Assembly (NCBI GenBank): GCA_032622095.1
Contig: CP136068.1
Span: 122,951,989 to 123,015,988, forward strand
Direction of reading: 5' to 3'
DNA from: Siphonodentalium dalli
Taxonomy: Eukaryota > Mollusca > Scaphopoda > Gadilida > Siphonodentaliidae
Length of the DNA stretch: 64,000 nt
The notes under the pieces are model-generated. The model saw only the letters and a program-made list of their open reading frames with translations, was not told the DNA's origin and ran no database searches. Made by a program: the position numbers and the translations under genes. Shown here in pieces: positions 6,601 to 53,900 of the stretch (positions are counted from its first letter, which is position 1; every line of letters starts with the position of its first letter).

Positions 6601-9600
6601 AGTATAGTTTTACAAATCGACAATAAACATACATGTATAAGCTGACTATTCTTCGATTTTCGTACAGTAGGTCGAGTACCGAGTACTGCCTGTACTTGGC
6701 TACAAAACTGGTACCACAAAAACGGTTATTTTCGCTACCGGTTAACAAGCCTGATCATGAGATACTGGGTACTAAAAACCGTCTCTCTTTCTGCAATGGC
6801 TGCCATTATATAATATTAGCACTTTCTATACTAAATGGATTCTCCCACCCAGTTATAAAAGTAAATAATTGGAATGGTCTATTATTCATCTGGAGGAGTT
6901 TTCATGAAAAGTAAGAAGACAGCAGATAATAAGTTCAACAAATGACGTATGATTGACCTACGATCGACATATGAACGGCCTATGATCGACCTATGTTCGA
7001 CCTATGATCAACATATGATCGACCTATGATCGACCTATGTTCGACCTATGATCGACCTATGATCGACCGACCTATGATCAATCGACCTATGATCGACTTA
7101 TGATAGACCGACCTATGATCGACCGACCTATGATCGACCTATGATCGACCTATGTTCGACCTATGATCGACCGACCTATGATCAACCGACCTATGATCGA
7201 CCTATGATCGACCGACCTATGATCGACCTATGATCGACCTATGATAGACCGACCTATGATCAACCTATGTTCGACCTATGATCGACCTATGATCGACCGA
7301 CCTATGATCGACCTATGATCGACCTATGATCGACCTATGATCGACCTATGTTCGACCTATGATCGACCGACCTATGATCGACCGACCTATGATCGACCTA
7401 TGATCGACCTATGATCGACCTATGAACATAATTATTATCTGAACATTTTCTTTGGGATAACTACTCATCAAAAAGTTTTTAGTAGAAAGGGTTAAACTCT
7501 CAACTATCCGATCTGATGTAATTTGAAGCTTATTCTTATTTACCCACGTCAATCACTGAACTCGAACCATCAAAAATCGCAAATGAAATCATGCAGCCCC
7601 AATGCAGTTTACCCTACCCTTGCAAAATTTATTCTTGCTTTTATTTGATACTAAACTCACCTATTTTGAAGTTGTTTGTAGTTAATGAAGGACATGTAAA
7701 CAAACGTGGAAATATCATATATATCGGAATGGGAATACCTCGGCACACATCACCTTCAGCTATCTGGATGTTCTGTATCTCAGTCGCTGAAAAAAAATGA
7801 GTAAACATTTCTTTACTAAATACTCAATGATGTTAAAGTTAAAGTTCCCTTAGAAAATGTTCAGATAATAAGTTAAAGAAATGGCCATATGCAATAGGCC
7901 GTTTGTTGAACTTATTATATGAACATTTCCCACCAATGTATAAGAATCCTTCTGCATTTGTATTATCTATTCGTCCTTCTGTCATCTGCTTATATTCTTG
8001 AACATCCCCCGGATGAATAATAGACCATCCAATATATACTTTCATAACTGAATGGGGAAAATCGATTTAGTAATGTAAGGGTTAAATTCACTCATTTCTT
8101 CAGGATTATTATTATTATTCTCATAATCAGGGTGAAGGAAAGCACAGAAATATGCACACTTTGGAAGTAGGGCTTTCATAAAATATTTTTACCCAGATGC
8201 CTACAAGCATGGACAACTCTTTATATGTCAAAATGATCTATGTGTTATAATGTATAATTAATACAGTATGTTATGTAGTCATGAATATATTACATCCATT
8301 ATACTCCAGTGTTTCAAATATGCACGTTTATTAATTTCAACGAAAATGTTCACCCTGCACGTATATTAGAAAATATTAATACATTAATTGGCACATAACA
8401 GTAGCATACAATCAACATTCTCGGAATAACTTGCCGAAATATGCAGTGTGTAATGTGGAATTAAACAAACCATCTTCTTTCTTTGTGAGTGAACAAAACA
8501 TTCATGCATAAAATTGAGTTACCACTGGCATGCCATTGACATTCTCAGAACAACTTGTTAGAAATATGCAGTGTGAAATTCAGAATTAAGCTAACCATCT
8601 GCTTTTTTGTGAGTGATGCTCCTTTATGTGCAAGTGAATTTCAGTGAAAATAAATTGTCAAATGGGAAAGGCGTTAATGGCATTGGTGACATTCTGTGTA
8701 GGATAGGTGAGGCTCCATTTGTGGCGCCGTTAATATAGCTGTGAACCTTAAATCTACTTGGTTAAATTGCTTGGTATAATCAATTGAATGGTTCATTAAG
8801 TACTTGAAGCAGTCACTGGGTAGGCAACAAAGATTAGATCATTTTTGTGTATTTCATCTACTATGGCTGTTTGTTGAACTTATTATCTGAACATTTCCCG
8901 AGGGAACCACTTGGTTAACATAAGTAGTCACTTGGTAGACACATGAAAGATTTACAGAGTGTGCTGTGTGCATGATTCTGATTTAAATTACAAGGAAACT
9001 CATCTCTTTTGAGTCTTAATCTGAGTGACATAAGATGATAAATACTATTGGCACACATAATAATAGTAAAAATAGTCAAACCAAATCAATAATAAACAAA
9101 AACCATTACAAGAAAATAGTTGCTTTTTAATAAATTGGTTGGCAGACACAACCATTGCAAAAATGTTTAATTTGGGAAAATAATAAAAATACTTCATGTA
9201 GTTTTCTATTTCCCGTTTTTCTTTGAAATCTTATGTCATAAAAAAACAAGAGCATCTGGGGTGTGGCTAAATACAGTTACAAAATTGTTATTAAGTCAGG
9301 TGCCAGTGAATTTTAAGTTGAAAAAGAGCCATAACTTATGTAGATATAATTGGACGGACAAATATTTGAACTTGGCCTGTATAATTGCTGTGCAACACAC
9401 ACACCAACATTGGTTCTGATAAATTAAATTTGTCACAATATTGTCTGCTAACATCAGGTGCATCAATAGACAATAAATAAACAACCAAGTGTGCTCGCCT
9501 TCACAGAGTTATTTATCCTAGACCGGGAACACCCTCCAATTTTGCTCGATAATTATGCCATATTTCCAAATGGTAATTGTAATTTTTGAAACTTCCATAA

Positions 9601-12600
9601 CATGAAATACAATTATAATGTTACATTCGACAGAAAACATCCATTTTAATTGAAACGAGGTCCATAACTTCATCAATAATCATCCATATTTGAGTTTGAT
9701 CTCTGTCCAAACAGTTATACATATATATAAAAACAAAATTTCGCAGTCAAAATATCATCTCAAGATCAGTAGATTGATGTATGGATGAACAAGCATCGCT
9801 AGGGTGTGTCAAAATATGCCCTTTAGCCATTTCAAATTGTACTACCACAAAATAAAATAATAATTTGAGCTTACAAAGAATATCTGATATACCCCTAATT
9901 TCAATGCAAAAATGCGGTCAAATTCTAAGTCGAAAAATGGCTGTAACTCATGTAAAAATAATTGGACAAAACCTATATTCGATCTTGGCCTGTAGTTTTA
10001 GCTGGGGAAACACACATACCATCTTTGGTTCAGATACAATAATCCAAACTTGAGTTATCGGTTGGAAACTGAAATGTTATGAAATCAGTCAAATTCTAAG
10101 TTGAAAAAGGGCCGTAACTTATGTAAAAATAATTGGACGGAACCCATATTCGAACTTGGCCTGTATCTTTAGCTGGGAAATTCACATACCAACTTTGGTT
10201 CAGATCAAATAATTCAAACTGGAGTAATCGGTCGGAAAACAAAAATGTTAACAGAAGGTCAAATTCTAAGTTGAAAAAGGGCCATAACTCATGCATTTAA
10301 ATATAATTGTACGGAACCCATATTCGAACTTGGCCTGTATTGTTAGCTGGGAAATACACATATCAACTTTGGTTCAGATCAAATAATCCAAACTGGAGCT
10401 ATCGATCGGAAACCAAAAATGTTAACGGAGGACGGACGGAAGGTACGACGGACGGATGGACAGACTGATTACATAATACGTCCTTTTTTCAAAAGGGCAT
10501 ATGAAAAACAGATGGATAGAGTTGTCAATTGGCCTACAAATTTTAGTTGAAGGACAAAAATAAGATCATCAAACATTAAGTTGGGATAACTACAGGACGT
10601 TTACCATAGATCTATGAATACACGTGAACTGAACAATGTTATGCAACTCTATTTTCTAAGTCATCATACACAGTTCTCTGAGAAATTAACAGTAGTGTGT
10701 CTGACATTTGCAGAATATAGATCCCCAGAGGGTGAATTTAGCTATCCCTCATGGTGGGGTAGCATCACCAAATTCACCCTCTGGGGACCTCATTCTGCAT
10801 GGCCTCATCTGCTATGGGAGACATAGACAGATTGAAGTTCCCAGATGGTGAATATTGTGATGTACACCCATTGGGAACATCGATTATGCAATGTGTCATC
10901 TGCCAATTTCGGGATATAGAGAAACTAAACTAAAACAGAAATAGAAGAAACTTTCCAGAGAGAAGATGAAGCCTAAGCAGAATGAGGTCCCCAGAGGGAG
11001 AATTTTGTGATGCTAGTGCACTATGCTTGATAGCATCACTAAATTCACCCTCTGGGGACCTCATTCTGCAAATGACAGGCACACTAAACTCAGACTTGCT
11101 TGAATTCTAATTGAATACTCACCGTCCTTTGCATATCCTTCTGCACAGCCACACGTCTCTACTCTCACCAGCTGAATCTCAATTGATTTGATTGGTGCTT
11201 CACATTTCTCTACCACAAGCTGCGATTAAACAGACAGTTATTTACTAGGGGATTGCCAGTCAAAATTAAATGGTCTATAAATGCTCTATATTACTTTTTG
11301 ATGTGCATTTAGTGCTGCTTCCCCCCCCCCCCCCCCCCGCACAGTAGGTTAGCATAACTAAATTAATCATCTGGGGACCTTATACTTAATGTCCTCATCT
11401 GCTATGGGGGACTTTTACTAAGATTTTTTTTCCCAGAAGGTGAAGATGGTGATGTGCGACCTTTGGGTATCTCGATTAAGCATTGTGTCATCTGCCAATT
11501 TGGGATATGGAGAAACAAAACTAGAAAAGAAAACAAACTTTCGAAAGAAGTTTCTAAAGAAAATAAAAATCTTGTTAATTTGATCATAAAGATACATGTA
11601 TTTACCAGAGAAGATGTGGCCTAAGCAGAATGAGATTTCCAGAAGGTGAATTTAGTGATGCTAGCCCGCAGTGCAGGGTAGCGTCACTAAATTCACCCTC
11701 TGGGGACCTCATTCTGCAAATGTCCGGCATCATATTTTCAGGCCTTATCCGGACACCTTTCTCTACAGATTTGGTGGTGTAAAATAATAAACATTCGCAG
11801 AATGAGGTCCCCAGAGGGTGAATTTGGTGACGCAGCGAGCTAGCATCACCAAATTCACCCTCTGGGGACCTCATTCTGCTTAAGCCTCATCTTCTGGGAA
11901 GTATCTCTAGCCTTGAAAATGAGTTTATTTTCCTGTTGGACAGGCATCAAAATAAAACAGAGTACTCACCTCACCAGTAAGTGGATCGGTAACTTTATAA
12001 GACAGAGTACTCACCCCACCAGTAAGTGGATCGGTAACTTTATAAGACAGAGTACACACCTCACCAGTAAGTGGATCGGTAACTTTATAAGACAGAGTAC
12101 TCACCTCACCAGTAAGTGGATCGGTAACTTTATAAGACAGAGTACTCACCTCACCAGTAAGTGGATCGGTAACTTTATAAGACAGAGTACTCACCTCACC
12201 AGTAAGTGGATCGGTAACTTTATAAGACAGAGTACTCACCTCACCAGTAAGTGGATCGGTAACTTTATAAGACAGAGTACTCACCTCACCAGTAAGTGGA
12301 TCGGTAACTTTATAAGACAGAGTACTCACCTCACCAGTAAGTGGATCGGTAACTTTATAAGACAGAGTACTCACCTCACCAGTAAGTGGATCGGTAACTT
12401 TATAAGACAGAGTACTCACCTCACCAGTAAGTGGATCGGTAACTTTATAAGACAGAGTACTCACCTCACCAGTAAGTGGATCGGTAACTTTATAAGACAG
12501 AGTACTCACCTCACCAGTAAGTGGATCGGTAACTTTATAAGACAGAGTACTCACCTCACCAGTAAGTGGATCGGTAACTTTATAAGACAGAGTACTCACC

Positions 12601-15600
12601 TCACCAGTAAGTGGATCGGTAACTTTATAAGACAGAGTACTCACCTCACCAGTAAGTGGATCGGTAACTTTATAAGACAGAGTACTCACCTCACCAGTAA
12701 GTGGATCGGTAACTTTATAAGACAGAGTACTCACCTCACCAGTAAGTGGATCGGTAACTTTATAAGACAGAGTACTCACCTCACCAGTAAGTGGATCAGT
12801 AACTTTATAAGACAGAGTACTCACCTCACCAGTAAGTGGATCGGTAACTTTATAAGACAGAGTACTCACCTCACCAGTAAGTGGATCGGTAACTTTATAA
12901 GACAGAGTACTCACCTCACCAGTAAGTGGATCGGTAACTTTATAAGACAGAGTACTCACCTCACCAGTAAGTGGATCGGTAACTTTACAGAGTACTCACC
13001 TCACCAGTAAGTGGATCGGTAACTTTATAAGAGAGAGTACTCACCTCACCAGTAAGTGGATCGGTAACTTTATAAGACAGAGTACTCACCTCACCAGTAA
13101 GTGGATCGGTAACTTTATAAGACAGAGTACTCACCTCACCAGTAAGTGGATCGGTAACTTTACAGAGTACTCACCTCACCAGTAAGTGGATCGGTAACTT
13201 TATAAGACAGAGTACTCACCTCACCAGTAAGTGGATCGGTAACTTTATAAGACAGAGTACTCACCTCACCAGTAAGTGGATCGGTAACTTTATAAGACAG
13301 AGTACTCACCTCACCAGTAAGTGGATCGGTAACTTTATAAGACAGAGTACTCACCTCCCCAGTAAGTGGATCGGTAACTTTACAGAGTACTCACCTCACC
13401 AGTAAGTGGATCGGTAACTTTATAAGACAGAGTACTCACCTCACCAGTAAGTGGATCGGTAACTTTATAAGACAGAGTACTCACCTCACCAGTAAGTGGA
13501 TCGGTAACTTTACAGAGTACTCACCTCACCAGTAAGTGGATCGGTAACTTTATAAGACAGAGTACTCACCTCACCAGTAAGTGGATCGGTAACTTTATAA
13601 GACAGAGTACTCACCTCACCAGTAAGTGGATCGGTAACTTTATAAGACAGAGTACTCACCTCACCAGTAAGTGGATCGGTAACTTTATAAGACAGAGTAC
13701 TCACCTCACCAGTAAGTGGATCGGTAACTTTATAAGAGAGAGTACTCACCTCACCAGTAAGTGGATCGGTAACTTTATAAGACAGAGTACTCACCTCACC
13801 AGTAAGTGGATCGGTAACTTTATAAGACAGAGTACTCACCTCACCAGTAAGTGGATCGGTAACTTTATAAGACAGAGTACTCACCTCACCAGTAAGTGGA
13901 TCGGTAACTTTATAAGAGAGAGTACTCACCTCACCAGTAAGTGGATCGGTAACTTTATAAGACAGAGTACTCACCTCACCAGTAAGTGGATCGGTAACTT
14001 TATAAGACAGAGTACTCACCTCACCAGTAAGTGGATCGGTAACTTTATAAGACAGAGTACTCACCTCACCAGTAAGTGGATCGGTAACTTTATAAGACAG
14101 AGTACTCACCTCACCAGTAAGTGGATCGGTAACTTTATAAGACAGAGTACTCACCTCACCAGTAAGTGGATCGGTAACTTTATAAGACAGAGTACTCACC
14201 TCACCAGTAAGTGGATCGGTAACTTTATAAGACAGAGTACTCACCTCACCAGTAAGTGGATCGGTAACTTTCAGACACGATGAGTCTAGCTTTCCTCTAA
14301 CTTTGAATTTTGGGACATTCTGTTTCTGAAGAAAAAGTTGAACATCCATTTAGGAAATCTTAAAAATAATTCTCAGATAAAGACATCACAAATATCTCTT
14401 GAAAAAACTGTGATGTTCTAAAAAAAAATATGATGACTGCAAGTACAAATGTAGTCTATTCTTTCGTACCCAGAATTCACGCAGGTCATCCTATAATACC
14501 CGCTGCTGGCAAATATTGAGTAAACCCCGTTGCGGGCACGAGTGAAGAGTTCATTATGTAGGTTTGTTTTGAGGAATTTTTTTTTATTAATTGTTTTTCT
14601 TTAGACACAACTCCGGATCCACGGGGTGCATGGTGAACCCAACTTCAACCAAATGCTAACAGTTCGACGAATAAAGCTCCATAAAGTGACGAAATGCTCT
14701 ATGAAGTATGAGAATAAGCTTCCATGTTTCAATTGTGTGTGTTTTCAGCTCCAAGATGAGTGCTTGGTGTTAAATTTGGACAACGTTATCAACATTCCAT
14801 TGATAGTTTGATACAGATAATTTAGGAGACTAAATCTATTGGAATTTGCTGCATTTAAGTAGGAAAATATTGACAATTGCACAAGACACTCCACAGTGTT
14901 GCGAGTAAACCCCATTGCGGGCATGATTTTTGCCGCATCGGAGTTTACTCCTGCCCGCATTACGTTTTACTTTATCGATGTACGTTATGTTTGGAAAGAT
15001 TTCTTTATTCAAGTTACTTGATAGGGATTTTGGGGTTTTTAGTACCAAAAAACGTCAAGGATAGACTGCTCAACCGTTTCAAAAAAAATTCTCGAGAAGT
15101 GTCTGCAGTGAAAGTTTTGATGCATGAAACTTAAATTTACCCTGACATTCCGAATGCGCTTGACTAAGATTGTGTTTTTCTCGAGAACTGTTATCTGAAT
15201 TATCCCTAAACTCCTGTCACAGCATAAATAGGTATTGCCTATCATATACGTCTTCCATTGGTTAGTATAACTTCTAAATTGACTACTTTTAACTAATTAG
15301 ACTAGCTCTGGTATGGAAAAGTCTAACTGTTATAGCCCGATGTGTGGTTTACTGACACCCGCACCAGGGTTTACTGCCTGCAGTGGGGATTATAGTTTGA
15401 CCAGCGTGAAATTCCTTATATCATAATTTGGTATGCATCTTTATCTTGTCATGAGTCTTTACTCTGGCTATGCCTGATGATATCATACTGCACCAAATTG
15501 CACCAATTAAAACCCTGGTAACTTTTTTGATGTTCTGAGCTTTATAACATTCAAAAGAAAATGCACGTAGGTATATTTCTTAGTTACATATGTAATACAT

Positions 15601-18600
15601 GTTCCTTTTAGACCAAGTCTTCTTGGTCCAAAAAATCTTGGGATATCAGTTGGGTTGATGCTGTTTTGGACCGAATTCCATCCCGTTACTCTTCTTTAAT
15701 GGGCTTTCATTGAAAAGACGTACTACATTTACACGTGGAGTCCTGGCATTAACATGAACTAGTATATGTGATTAATCACCTGACATGTCCGCGAATAATC
15801 TGCCTTCAAAATGATATATCATTTACTGTGATAGAAAAAGGTATAGTGATGATAGAATCATTTAATATATTGTCTACTTTCATTTTCTGATTGCGCGACA
15901 AATCAAAATATTCAAGGCTTTGTTTACTTATAAATCTCAATGCATTGACATTCAACGGACCTCTGATTTACGCATGTTTGAAATCACTGTGCTTTGGAAA
16001 GACCGCCCTCGATGTTCATATATGCAAAGTATCCATTTGACCTAATCCGAAGACATACAAGCAGGATAACACCCACCCATGATTCTGGGCGTAAAGTCCA
16101 TTATAGAAGAGTAACAGGAGGGGATTCGGTCCAAAACAGCATCTTCCCAAAACCATATCAACCCAACCAATATCCCAAGCTGTTTTGGACCTGAAGACTT
16201 GGTCTAGTTCCTTAATAATGGGATTCACAGTACTAGTAGGTGATAGTCCCAGCTCAGGATTGTATAATATGTGACCCGCCATATCAAATCCAGTCGGAAG
16301 TCGGGAATTTTTTACCCTGTGCCAATGCATTCTCTTATATATGCGAGTCGACCATAGGTCGCCTCGCATATATAAGAGAATGCATTGGCTTAACAATTTT
16401 TTATCATGTGTTTTAAATAAATGTTTCTTACAATTTTTAGGACATAAAATAAAATAACATCCATTACCCTGTAGGGAGCCCCACACATATATAGAAGCAC
16501 ATAGAAGAGTGTTGTCTGCTCATGTTTGTCTGGGGCTCTGTATGGGTGAAATTATAAAATTGTTAAAGAATACAAGAACAAATTATTAAAATTGTAAAAA
16601 ATTGTTAGGCCAATGCATTCTCTTATATATGCGAGGCGACCTATGGTCGACTCGCATATATAAGAGAATGCATTGGCACAGGGTAAAAAAATCCCGACTT
16701 CAGACTGGATTTGATATGGCGGGTCACATTTAGGCAAACTTTTAAGTTAATTTTGCTTGCGTTGCTTACAATCATGGGAATTTCCCTGGGTATGAATTCA
16801 ATGTTTATTGGGAAATCGACACACAAAATAAAAAAAAAGAGTTGGGAAATTGACACACAAAGTAAAAAAAAGAGTTGGGGCCACCCACTACAGTGAAATA
16901 CATTATTAAGGAACAGGTACTAACTGAGAAATATATTCCTGCATTGTTTATTCAATGTTATAAAGTTTCCCCGTCAAAAGAGGTCAGAACATCAAAAAGT
17001 TCCCAGGTTTTGAATGGTTGGAATATCATCTATATGGACGTATTCTTAGAGTATTCAAGTGTTTACTCAATGTGCCACACAGCACAAGGGTAAAATATTA
17101 ATCACAAGCCTTGAAGTAGTGTGTCTGACATTAAAGTTTGCAAAATGAGGTCCCCAGATGGTGGAATTAGTGACGCTACACTGCACAGCGGGCTAGCATC
17201 ACAAAATTCACCCTCTGGCCATCTCATTCTGCTTAGGCCTGCTATGGGAGACCTAGGATCAGATTGAAGTTCCCCGGTCCCTAACAGATTACTCTCACGG
17301 AACGCCGTTATGGGTGGCATCTAGTATGCACCCAGTTAGAAATTTGCTGATGGAACAAAGCCAAATATTTGATATTTACAATGGCAATGTAACACAATTC
17401 CAAGATTATCTGGAAATGTTCTGAGATTTCACTCAACTGCATCTTCGAAAGAAAAGAAAAAATCAGACTAATTTAGCTGAATAATAGTAATTTTCAAGTT
17501 CAATATCCATCAGTTATACATACCTCCTTTATATTAGTCAATGTATCTGGACTAATTGCGAAATTCACCGGTTGAATTTTGAACTTTTCTTTCTGTTCCT
17601 AAAATAAATGAGGGCAAAAAATGCTCAGTTTATCTCCTATGTTGTCAATTCAAGTTTTGCATTATCCTCGAGAATATCAAAATAGCGATATGAACTGTAA
17701 AAGTTTATTTGGCAAACATCTGTCCAACAATTAGATAACTAAAAGTAAATTTATCATCCGGAAACTAATATAACCGGCAAATTTTATGTCGCCAAGGACC
17801 ATAACTTACGGCAAAAAATTAATCCACATACCAAATTAAAAAACAATCAGATTACAAAAACTAAAGTTATCATACGGAAACCAAAATAATCGGCAAATTA
17901 TATGTCGACAAGGACCATCCGGAAACCACAAAATTCTAAGTCGAAAAGGGGCCATGACTCCAGCAAAAATGGGCAGACCTGTGTTTTGAGGTGATAAACT
18001 CACATACCAAATTTGGTTTTGATTCGATAGCCCAAAATAAAGTTCTCATCCGGAAACTTTCCGAACGGACGGACACCAGCTAATTTAATTGTCCCCAAAA
18101 AGACTTTATATTTTCTGTTGCCACTTTCTTTCCGACCAATATTTTTTGGTACCACTTTTGAATAGAATATTACCAAAAACAAAAGAAACAAATTAGTCTG
18201 ATGCATTGTTGCCAAAATCTAACTTACGCTTACGATTCATATTTGCTGTATGTCACAGTTTGTGAAAGCTGAGATAAATACGAAGGACATATTTATAATA
18301 ATTTACCTAACGACGTAGACTTCAGGAAGCCTTTCTGACTAATGTTTATCAAATTGGAGTCAATAGCCGTACTCAGTGTTAAAATCGAGTATAAATTTGA
18401 AACCCATTCACCCCAGCGATATAATAAGTCTTTGTGACATAAGCCGCGAATCCATTATACGCTTTCAATTAGGACCCAATTAGCTGTGACACGACCGTAT
18501 ATCAATGTGTATTTTGTTTCCTACCTATTGACTGCAAGGTTTATATGGTAGTCCGATGGGTATCAATTGCCAAAAGCCAAAAAGCTAGGTGTTAATTATT

Positions 18601-21695: not shown

Positions 21696-21795
21696 NNNNN
21701 NNNNNNNNNNNNNNNNNNNNNNNNNNNNNNNNNNNNNNNNNNNNNNNNNNNNNNNNNNNNNNNNNNNNNNNNNNNNNNNNNNNNNNNNNNNNNNN
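21696..21795. other. Assembly gap (100 N)
   Basis: Exactly one hundred N, the usual placeholder for a join of unknown size. It cuts a D-family element after its internal stretch 'tttatgtcctaaaaa'; the sequence on the far side is not the rest of that element, so true sequence, possibly including 5' exons, is missing here. Confidence 0.98.
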
Positions 21796-50900: not shown

Positions 50901-53900
50901 CTGTTGCCATGGGTTGGCATCCAGCCATCCCAAAATACTCTCAAATAGAATATTTCAATGTTTAGTTGGTGAAGCCTATAACTTGATTACTAGTAAGCAA
51001 TTGGCAGTTTGTTACATAGTGGGCTAGTATCACCAAATTCACCCTCTGGGGACCTCATTCTGCTTACACCTCAGCAGAATGAGGTTCCCAGAGGGTGAAT
51101 TTGGTGATGCTAGCCCGCTATGCGGGGTAGCATCACTAAATTCACCCTCTGGGAACCTCATTCTGCAAATTACAGACACACTATATCAAGGCTTGCTCCT
51201 ATTGAATACTCTATTTGCACAGAATACATGATTTTATTTTAACCCTTTACCCAACAAACCGGCCAAAACTGGTCAAATAAAGCTTCAACAGCCTAAAATA
51301 TCTTCGGTCTGTCTCAATAGAACCATACAAATATGGATATCATTGGAACCGGCTCCTTGACCACATTGTGATAGTTACAGTTATACCCTGTGCCAATGCA
51401 TTCTCTTATATATGCGAGTCGACCATAGGTCGCCTCGCATATATAAGAGAATGCATTGGCCTAAAAAAAATCTTTTTTTTAACACTTTTTACCATTTTTT
51501 CTTACATTCTTTAACAATTTTATAATTTTTAATGTGTTAAGCCAATACATTCTCTTATATATGCGAGGCGACCTATGGTCGACTCGCATATATAAGAGAA
51601 TGCATTGGCACAGGGCCGTTCTGTTGGGTAAAGGGTTAACCAGCATTTTGAATTTTCTTTGCAGCTTTCATGATCCAGGTTATATTTATGATACTAGCGG
51701 GATACACATCTAACGCGATAGCTTGTATGACTTGTCTGACCATCGCAGTCGGTCTCGGCGGATTTGCATGGGCTGGATTTAGCGTCAACCACCTTGATAT
51801 TGCTCCACAGGTATGGGTAGCTACTTCTCAATATATTCTTGGTGCAAACTCAAAACTAGTTGGATTGGGTAATTAACCAATTCATTACTGAATGAATTAT
51901 CCAATTCAGTTAAAATATATTGCAGCTTAATTTTATTTACCCTACAGTATTTTTAACAATAGTTATGTAAAGTATATTTCTGCTGTTTGTAAAACAAAGA
52001 TATGTAATACAGAGTGGCTTTCGTTTAGACAGTGTTGCTTATAAAATAACTGTAACAGTAATGTTTACATAACAACAATTTCAACATCGAAATCGCATTA
52101 CTGTAGAATGATTGATAAAGAGGATTAGAAAATACCAAGCCTTGAAATAGGGTGTCTGTCATTTGCAGAATGAGGTCCCCAGAGGGTGAATTTACTGATG
52201 CTACCCCACATAGCGGGCTAGCATCACCAAATTTACCCTCTGGGGACCTCATTCTGCTTACACCTCAACAGAATGAGGTTCCCAGAGGGTGAATTTGGTG
52301 ATGCTAGCCCGCTATGCGGGGTAGCATCACTAAATTCACCCTCTGGGGACCTCATTCTGCAAATGACAGACACCCTATTTCAAGGCTTGGAAAATACTTT
52401 GGATGAGTTAACCCTTCCATGACTGGAGCTTCATGAAATTTTGTGAAAACCCTGTGCCAATTCATTCTCTTATATATGCGAGTCTCCCTCCCATGGGGAG
52501 CCTCGCATATATAGGAGAATAAATTGGCCTAAGAATATTTACCTTGACATTCTAAGCCAGTGCATTCTCTTATATATGTGAGGCTCCCTACGGGAGACTC
52601 GCATATATAAGAGAATGCACTGGCACAGCATCTTTAATGCTGCACCAGCACAGCTCCCGTCATGAAAGGGTTAAATCATATATGTATATAAACCTTTAAA
52701 AATGAGTTTTACATTGACATATAATAAAAATTGCAACAAATATTAGATGTTCATTCTAAAAATTTTATTTATAATATATTCTATTTGAAGTTTAATGAGT
52801 CATGCGTGCTGCATGATGTCTCATTTATATATCATTTATTTTTCTTCAGTATGCCAGTATTTTGATGGGCCTTTCTAACACATTTGCCACTATTCCTGGT
52901 ATAGTGAGTCCTGGCTTGACTTCTGTCATAGTAACAGACAAGGTAACTATATCAATGAGTTTTTATATGCCCGATTTGAAGAAACAGGACATATTATGTT
53001 ATTGGTCCATCCGTCTGTCTGTCCATTCGCTTTATCGTTTCCGATGATAACTTTAGTAAGTCTGAACTGAATGGAATTAAATTTAGTATATGAGTTATGC
53101 TCCTGTGAATATTTCATTTGCTTCCGAAACGAATAGCATTAATATTCGCAAATCAAATAGAATATCGAATCCAATATAATCAACGATGAATCATAGCATG
53201 CAAACTTTCAAGTAGAAAAACTTGATTCTATCGCACATGCGACTGTCAAATGATTGAATTTTGTCAACTAGAAATAGTGACTACTTGAAAACGGTGATTT
53301 AAAAATTTAGTACATCAATAATAATTGTCCCAATCAGATCATTGCCAACCGAATGAACCGATATGCTACATTACTAGTCATTATAAGATGCCTGATAACC
53401 GATAAATGCAATTTATTGTAGCCAGCAGTTATGCCTAGTGACCTGTAGATGTGAATGGAAATAATGCACTTTTTTGCCCTGGAAAACAGGGATGGTGGAC
53501 ACCGTGGGGTTGTTGGGAAGTGATTCCGTATGAAATATATTGTATTGTAACTCAAGTTAAACAAATTCTGTAAAGTTTGTAACACACATTGCATTGTATT
53601 ATTGATAATACGTGCTCAGAAAACTCTTCCAATGTACGTATCAGATCTCCGAGAAACTATTTTTAAATTTGCAAATTACGGAATGGGACAGGGCTCACGT
53701 GACAGATGTTTTATGAGTAGGCCCTATTATATAACCATCTAAATGTATTACACGTGCGGCATGCAGACGTTTCAGCCTTCCCCAAATAAGACCGCATCAA
53801 TCAACTCTCTATTGAATGAAGTCATGAATGCCAAGGGCTAAATACTCAGCAATTAATAAAATAAACAGTGTTTTTACTCTGCTGATGACCTTGACTCTTA

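Follow-up and report, generated by a model that had tools for sequence, protein, structure and literature searches.

Which 5′ splice site is used when a coding exon is followed by a tandem series of dozens of strong, identical donors? Such an arrangement is a natural experiment on 5′ splice site choice, for which exon-centric proximity predicts the first donor and intron-centric proximity the last. It occurs in a stretch of 64,000 nucleotides from the scaphopod Siphonodentalium dalli (GenBank assembly GCA_032622095.1, contig CP136068.1, positions 122,951,989 to 123,015,988 of the forward strand; hereafter the window), where the end of an exon of the VPS26C gene and its donor are repeated in 52 tandem units. 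Judged by its sequence, this array is a large and tidy example, one of several in the genome, of the “mirages” already described in amphioxus, which are minisatellite-like tandem duplications of exon/intron boundaries reported in Adh3 and globin genes (PMC3087553). We consider it likely that this mirage-type minisatellite is spliced from the first donor and that the other donors are removed with the intron.

The VPS26C array and its reading frame

The elements of the array and the exons on either side of it are as follows (window coordinates).

14245..14325, minus strand: VPS26C array exon, 81 nt, 27 aa, ending in phase 0 at TGE, with the native donor (sequence, PDB match, tblastn)
11952..14271, minus strand: tandem array of 52 units (Tandem Repeats Finder [TRF] and unit-by-unit parse)
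13512..13551, minus strand: first 40-bp unit, reading on from the exon, without CTTAT (parse)
11952..12086, minus strand: three intron-side edge units, all variants, namely one with a GTGTGT donor, one with a GGG/GTGAGT donor and the last unit, which merges into single-copy intron (sequence, parse)
11123..11219, minus strand: next VPS26C exon (LVVEK...), acceptor AG at 11221-11220 (sequence, PDB match, tblastn)

The array exon (14325-14245) ends in AAAGTTACCGATCCACTTACTGGTGAG, followed by GTGAGTACTC, and its last 27 nt, which form the exonic portion of unit 1, are then repeated head to tail together with 18 nt of intron start, down to position 11952. TRF called a period of 45 with 52.0 copies and 97% matches over 11952-14271. 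Parsed unit by unit (n = 52), the array consists of 48 units of 45 bp and four of 40 bp, the latter starting at 13551, 13421, 13201 and 13026; 40/52 units are identical. An exact GAG/GTGAGT donor (the slash marks the exon/intron boundary) is present in 50/52 units, and the other two carry GAG/GTGTGT (unit from 12086) and GGG/GTGAGT (unit from 12041). On a Shapiro-Senapathy-type matrix, these three donors score 93.5, 82.7 and 86.0 of 100, respectively. On the minus strand of the window, GAGGTGAGT is confined to the array.

Joined across the array, the two neighboring exons (59 aa) match human VPS26C (PDB 8p0x_P, E 5.9e-20), in which TGE and LVVE are adjacent. We searched the assembly, which represents one haplotype of 2.23 Gb in 9 sequences (lengths sum 2,226,750,531; N50 264.3 Mb) and in which a missing match of a unit, exon or retrocopy is no proof of absence. 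Each of the two exons was matched once, and a double unit gave 24 matches, all inside the VPS26C array. An assembly artefact, with a true array much shorter or longer than the assembled one, has in its favor that the array length is that of the assembly, and that aberrant assembly of one mirage was reported for the draft genome of amphioxus (PMC3087553). Against it, variant units are scattered irregularly through the array, no N lies inside or near it (the sole N run of the window, 100 N at 21696-21795, is away from it), and the genome contains further, independent arrays of this class. We regard such an artefact as extremely unlikely.

Translation from the exon stays open through 16 extra donors, each of which would add one VSTLSYKVTDPLTGE, and ends at a TAA (13512-13510) where the first 40-bp unit reads GTG AGT ACT CTG TAA. 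A sequence-only reading of the window had described a VPS26C array starting at 11957, with 52 donor-bearing units of 27 nt of exon and 18 nt of intron, and had counted 16 in-frame extra copies. TRF and the parse agree with this anatomy, the array end found at 11952 being a few bases away; the PDB match agrees with the gene and translation with the count. The same reading had the first 40-bp unit break the frame near 13511. The frame does end there, and this unit moreover brings a TAA stop at once.

On the plus strand, the array gives two long antisense open frames, 11844-13010 and 13471-14283 (388 and 270 aa), with no sign of being genes.

Exon-end arrays elsewhere in the genome

The whole assembly was searched for three copies of AGGTGAGT with 10-40 base spacers, with the pattern read backwards as a control. 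Triples of AGGTGAGT gave 653+1037 matches (forward+reverse) versus 448+69 for the backward control, and triples of AGGTAAGT gave 1168+769 versus 636+685. For GAGGTGAGT, the numbers were 103+209 versus 159+10, an excess not found on both strands. Matches of these patterns chain within arrays, so that match totals are not array counts. By eye, 21 + 11 arrays were recognized among the matches listed (one clustered family counted once), and the GAGGTGAGT triple contributed seven further arrays among the matches listed (to C6); all 32 and all seven were fetched in part. In the stretch that contains the set of 21, the backward octamer yielded 11 arrays among the matches listed, five of which are one dispersed family; one backward-octamer array is the other strand of L030 from the forward set.

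An array was assigned to an exon end if the exon peptide read open as far as the first donor and matched a known family. In this partial census of 39 arrays, several of them incompletely fetched, nine arrays in eight genes are exon-end arrays, and the others are without homology support. L026 starts right at the border of the fetched sequence, and in several others, such as L013, L016, L021 and L033, the first exact donor is preceded by similar units; these arrays are thus candidates for exon ends. The eight genes encode Rab2 (PDB 1z0a, Rab-2A, E 2.1e-11; Pfam Ras, E 4.5e-5), USP47 (Pfam USP47_C, E 6.2e-12), a NIDO protein present in two near-identical copies (Pfam NIDO, E 8.7e-12), an F-lectin (PDB 3cqo, FBP32, E 3.3e-7; Pfam only E 0.077), an M1 aminopeptidase (Peptidase_M1_N, E 2.7e-16), a nucleoside transporter (Nucleos_tra2_C, E 1.2e-7, 32.1 bits, just under the 32.3 cut-off), USO1/p115 (Uso1_p115_C, E 8.8e-9) and a candidate PTP-like protein. 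The last is assigned by an HCHAGL motif only, which we take to be PTP-like; its best PDB match has an E of 0.27, and it has no Pfam match. The locations of three of these arrays, and of a further array discussed below, are as follows.

G000:C1:250507700-250511800: array L074 at the PTP-like exon, 48 exact TAG/GTAAGT donors, units of 47 and 29 bp
G000:C5:222010113-222011900: M1 aminopeptidase exon, L084/L089
G000:C5:43585900-43588300 and on: USO1/p115 exon end, L083/L087, with the array continuing for >3 kb (matches listed)
G000:C4:19105786-19109700: L082/L086, 27-bp units, 71 copies, 270 aa open, VSDNSTDDE-like repeats

Reading past the first donor in these genes leads to GE and a stop in both Rab2 and the F-lectin, R and a stop in USP47, and VS and a stop in the NIDO gene. 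The stop comes after 15 aa in the PTP-like gene, after VSHHDHV in the aminopeptidase gene and after VSHNKYKDKLRKPVLS in USO1. An in-frame stop thus precedes the next exact donor in 7/8 other exon-end arrays. In the remaining gene, that of the transporter (VSMPGMDNTRGE and a stop), the second donor is reached after 31 nt, ahead of the stop, and would shift the frame, and the third donor lies beyond the stop. In-frame copies from the second donor are possible in 0/8, and in all eight genes only the first donor can give an intact protein. The stops or frame shift in 8/8 of these arrays therefore argue that the first donor is the productive one as a general rule.

These results bear on the two outcomes that the sequence-only reading had placed side by side for VPS26C, reliable use of one donor out of dozens and a ladder of in-frame isoforms. 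In the latter, the second to seventeenth donors would be used appreciably, giving VPS26C with 1-16 extra copies of VSTLSYKVTDPLTGE. The 16 in-frame, stop-free extra donors, which share the nine bases of the native donor, speak for it. Against it stand the eight other arrays, where stops (seven) or a frame shift (one) follow from later donors, which removes the ladder from equal standing and favors the use of one donor. Amphioxus mirages, moreover, are reported as not disturbing splicing (PMC3087553), and the exon-centric proximity rule (PMC9225289) predicts first-donor use. Finally, in a simulation of random arrays, which is rough and has parameters of our own choosing, the frame was open by chance in 0.31 of cases for phase 0, 0.26 for phase 1 and 0 for phase 2, or about one-fifth overall; the open frame of VPS26C needs no selection, because chance alone opens frames in this simulation. 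We consider appreciable use of the later donors improbable, and a ladder as the main outcome unlikely.

Alternatively, the downstream donors might act as a bank of decoys for the U1 small nuclear ribonucleoprotein, tuning splicing or guarding a long intron from premature polyadenylation, and be kept for that purpose. The preservation of a near-consensus donor in 50/52 units would fit this role; however, homogenisation alone explains the sameness of the donors, and exon ends are not significantly enriched among arrays. Homology-supported exon ends were found in 5/32 census arrays (L005, L014, L017, L024 and L031, with L005 counted by PDB match only) versus 2/33 single AGGTGAGT octamers (L057 and L067), a nonsignificant difference in a small census (Fisher p 0.26, or 0.42 with the near-identical L014 and L017 collapsed). 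We thus make no claim of preferential amplification of real donors, and a decoy function appears very improbable. By Pfam matches over the cut-off alone, the counts were 4/32 arrays versus 2/33 single octamers (Metallopep, STT3). Census peptides were at least 20 aa long and open up to the donor, some being trimmed or dropped by eye in both sets. The single octamers were sampled by an unrelated downstream anchor; of their 38 matches, 33 were fetched and five that repeated sequences already listed were left out, although the near-identical L040 and L047 were both kept. Five single-octamer peptides compared with PDB gave no match below E 0.01, and some further octamers (e.g., L040 and L068) look coding by eye.

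Mirages, related systems and the choice of donor

At the sequence level, every feature of mirages that we tested is found in the VPS26C array. Its unit spans an exon/intron boundary (27 nt + 18 nt), the units contain splice signals (GAG/GTGAGT in 50/52), and the authentic exon is intact at the array end (14325-14245 is open and matches human VPS26C). Other genes are affected as well, at both types of boundary: eight have exon-end arrays, one by motif only, and the M1 aminopeptidase exon is flanked at its donor end by ~6 units of 37 bp and at its opposite end by degenerate repeats, ~11 units of 34 bp, of the acceptor and exon start. The amphioxus mirages likewise have many units with splice signals, keep the authentic exon and affect both 5′ and 3′ boundaries (PMC3087553, PMC3902484), and the second of these reports adds TnC (troponin C) and PGBD5 to the list of affected genes. 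The 45-bp unit of VPS26C is within the 10-72 bp range reported for Adh3 mirage units; reported haplotypes of amphioxus BflGb6 have 6 and 3 units versus 52 in VPS26C, which also differs by its stop-free frame over 16 units. The amphioxus genome, of about 0.5 Gb, is moreover much smaller than the present one of 2.23 Gb. The view that there was no described case thus does not hold for the kind of array, which is known from amphioxus and recurs in this genome; for VPS26C itself, no report was found, the literature not having been searched by gene name.

Direct tandem repeats carrying splice signals are shared with intron gain of the Rogers type, from which the VPS26C array differs in that it only lengthens one intron, nothing pointing to a new one. 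Zhuo et al. (2007) reportedly linked human arrays to intron gain by tandem duplication. The Rogers model, as named in PMC3087553, has introns arise from tandem duplication of AG/GT segments. In human segmental duplications, variable tandem repeats have been reported at exon-intron boundaries, some with support from alternative transcripts (PMC2812944). These are also minisatellite changes at exon edges; they concern recent paralogues, with a mean of 4 copies of 30 bp, whereas the VPS26C exons were each matched once.

We infer the following origin of the array. A short stretch across the exon/donor boundary would have been duplicated in tandem, after which slippage or unequal exchange would have amplified and homogenised the units. 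The exon would have been kept intact with unit 1, the other 51 units lying inside the intron, and the array would persist because splicing ignores units 2 to 52. The introns flanking the array exon measure 3198 and 3025 nt from the exon edges. Because this 81-nt exon lies between introns of ~3 kb, it would be recognized across the exon (exon definition), and splicing would use the first donor (after 14245), which is the closest to the acceptor of this same exon. In the minigenes of Carranza et al. (2022), with exon definition, flanking introns of 365 nt and a pair of identical CAG/guaagu donors separated by 52 nt, only the upstream donor was reported to be used (PMC9225289). This minigene matches VPS26C in donor spacing, equal donor strength and intron setting, and first-donor use is the most likely outcome for VPS26C RNA.

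Several observations weigh against this conclusion. The minigenes had two competing donors, not 52; genome-wide, the upstream lean under long introns is reported as ~60% and only for donors of near equal strength; without a strength filter, all classes lean downstream; and classical work cited in the same report found the intron-proximal donor to be preferred (PMC9225289). In contrast to the other eight exon-end arrays, that of VPS26C has a unit that keeps the reading frame without a stop over 16 copies, as a functional ladder would require. An open frame is also seen in three arrays that are candidate exon ends: in L082 and, as far as the fetched sequence extends, in L009 (24-bp unit) and L030 (27-bp spacing). 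An exon and array similar to L082/L086 are found at a second place on C4 (L081); L082/L086 and L081 could represent either repetitive coding sequence or a mirage with an open frame.

RNA structure was considered as a determinant of donor choice. The GAGTACTC of the donor is self-complementary, and neighboring donors pair in a predicted fold of two units. The predicted stability was no better than that of shuffled sequences in 3/3 stretches (z -0.93, -0.12 and -0.19), and we rejected this candidate.

Arrays such as this one would extend exon-edge minisatellites beyond amphioxus, and those in Rab2, USO1, USP47, VPS26C and other genes would let RNA reads settle donor choice directly. A more far-reaching proposal is that mirages are widespread here outside cephalochordates, at perhaps dozens of exon edges on both donor and acceptor sides, and that leaky donor choice at a few frame-preserving, stop-free loci, VPS26C first, yields a ladder of lengths of a conserved protein that varies between individuals. 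We hold this combination to be improbable.

Other VPS26C exons and repeats

Further exons of VPS26C in the window are as follows.

19755-19675, minus strand: VPS26C exon (tblastn, edges by eye)
17524..17598, minus strand: exon preceding the array exon (EQKEKF...NIKE, 75 nt, phase 0; tblastn with human VPS26C, edges from sequence)
from 7786, minus strand: VPS26C exon (edge by eye)
from 651, minus strand: last VPS26C exon (edge by eye)

A tblastn search of the window with human VPS26C as the query did not reveal the exons that encode approximately the first 117 residues. A VPS26C retrocopy, which would preserve the spliced mRNA sequence, was sought, and none was found in the assembly. Pfam models of molluscan haemocyanin (PF14830), the annelid linker (PF16915) and arthropod cuticle (PF00379) were likewise without a match, which is no proof of absence.

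Other repeats were observed. A 42-bp array with GAG/GTGAGT in its unit, L085/L088 (G000:C6:2299400-2302400), has 72 copies and fills the whole 3 kb fetched. A repeated, hairpin-like element resembling a miniature inverted-repeat transposable element (CAGAATGAGGTCCCCAGAGGGTGAATTT and an inverted copy) is present in the window at ~11795-11880, 11625-11717, 11000-11070 and 52166-52360; three of its copies are near the VPS26C array, in the same gene. Lastly, an intron of VPS26C contains an 11-bp tandem array of GACCTATGATC, with ~43 copies at 6944-7425 of the window, away from exon edges.

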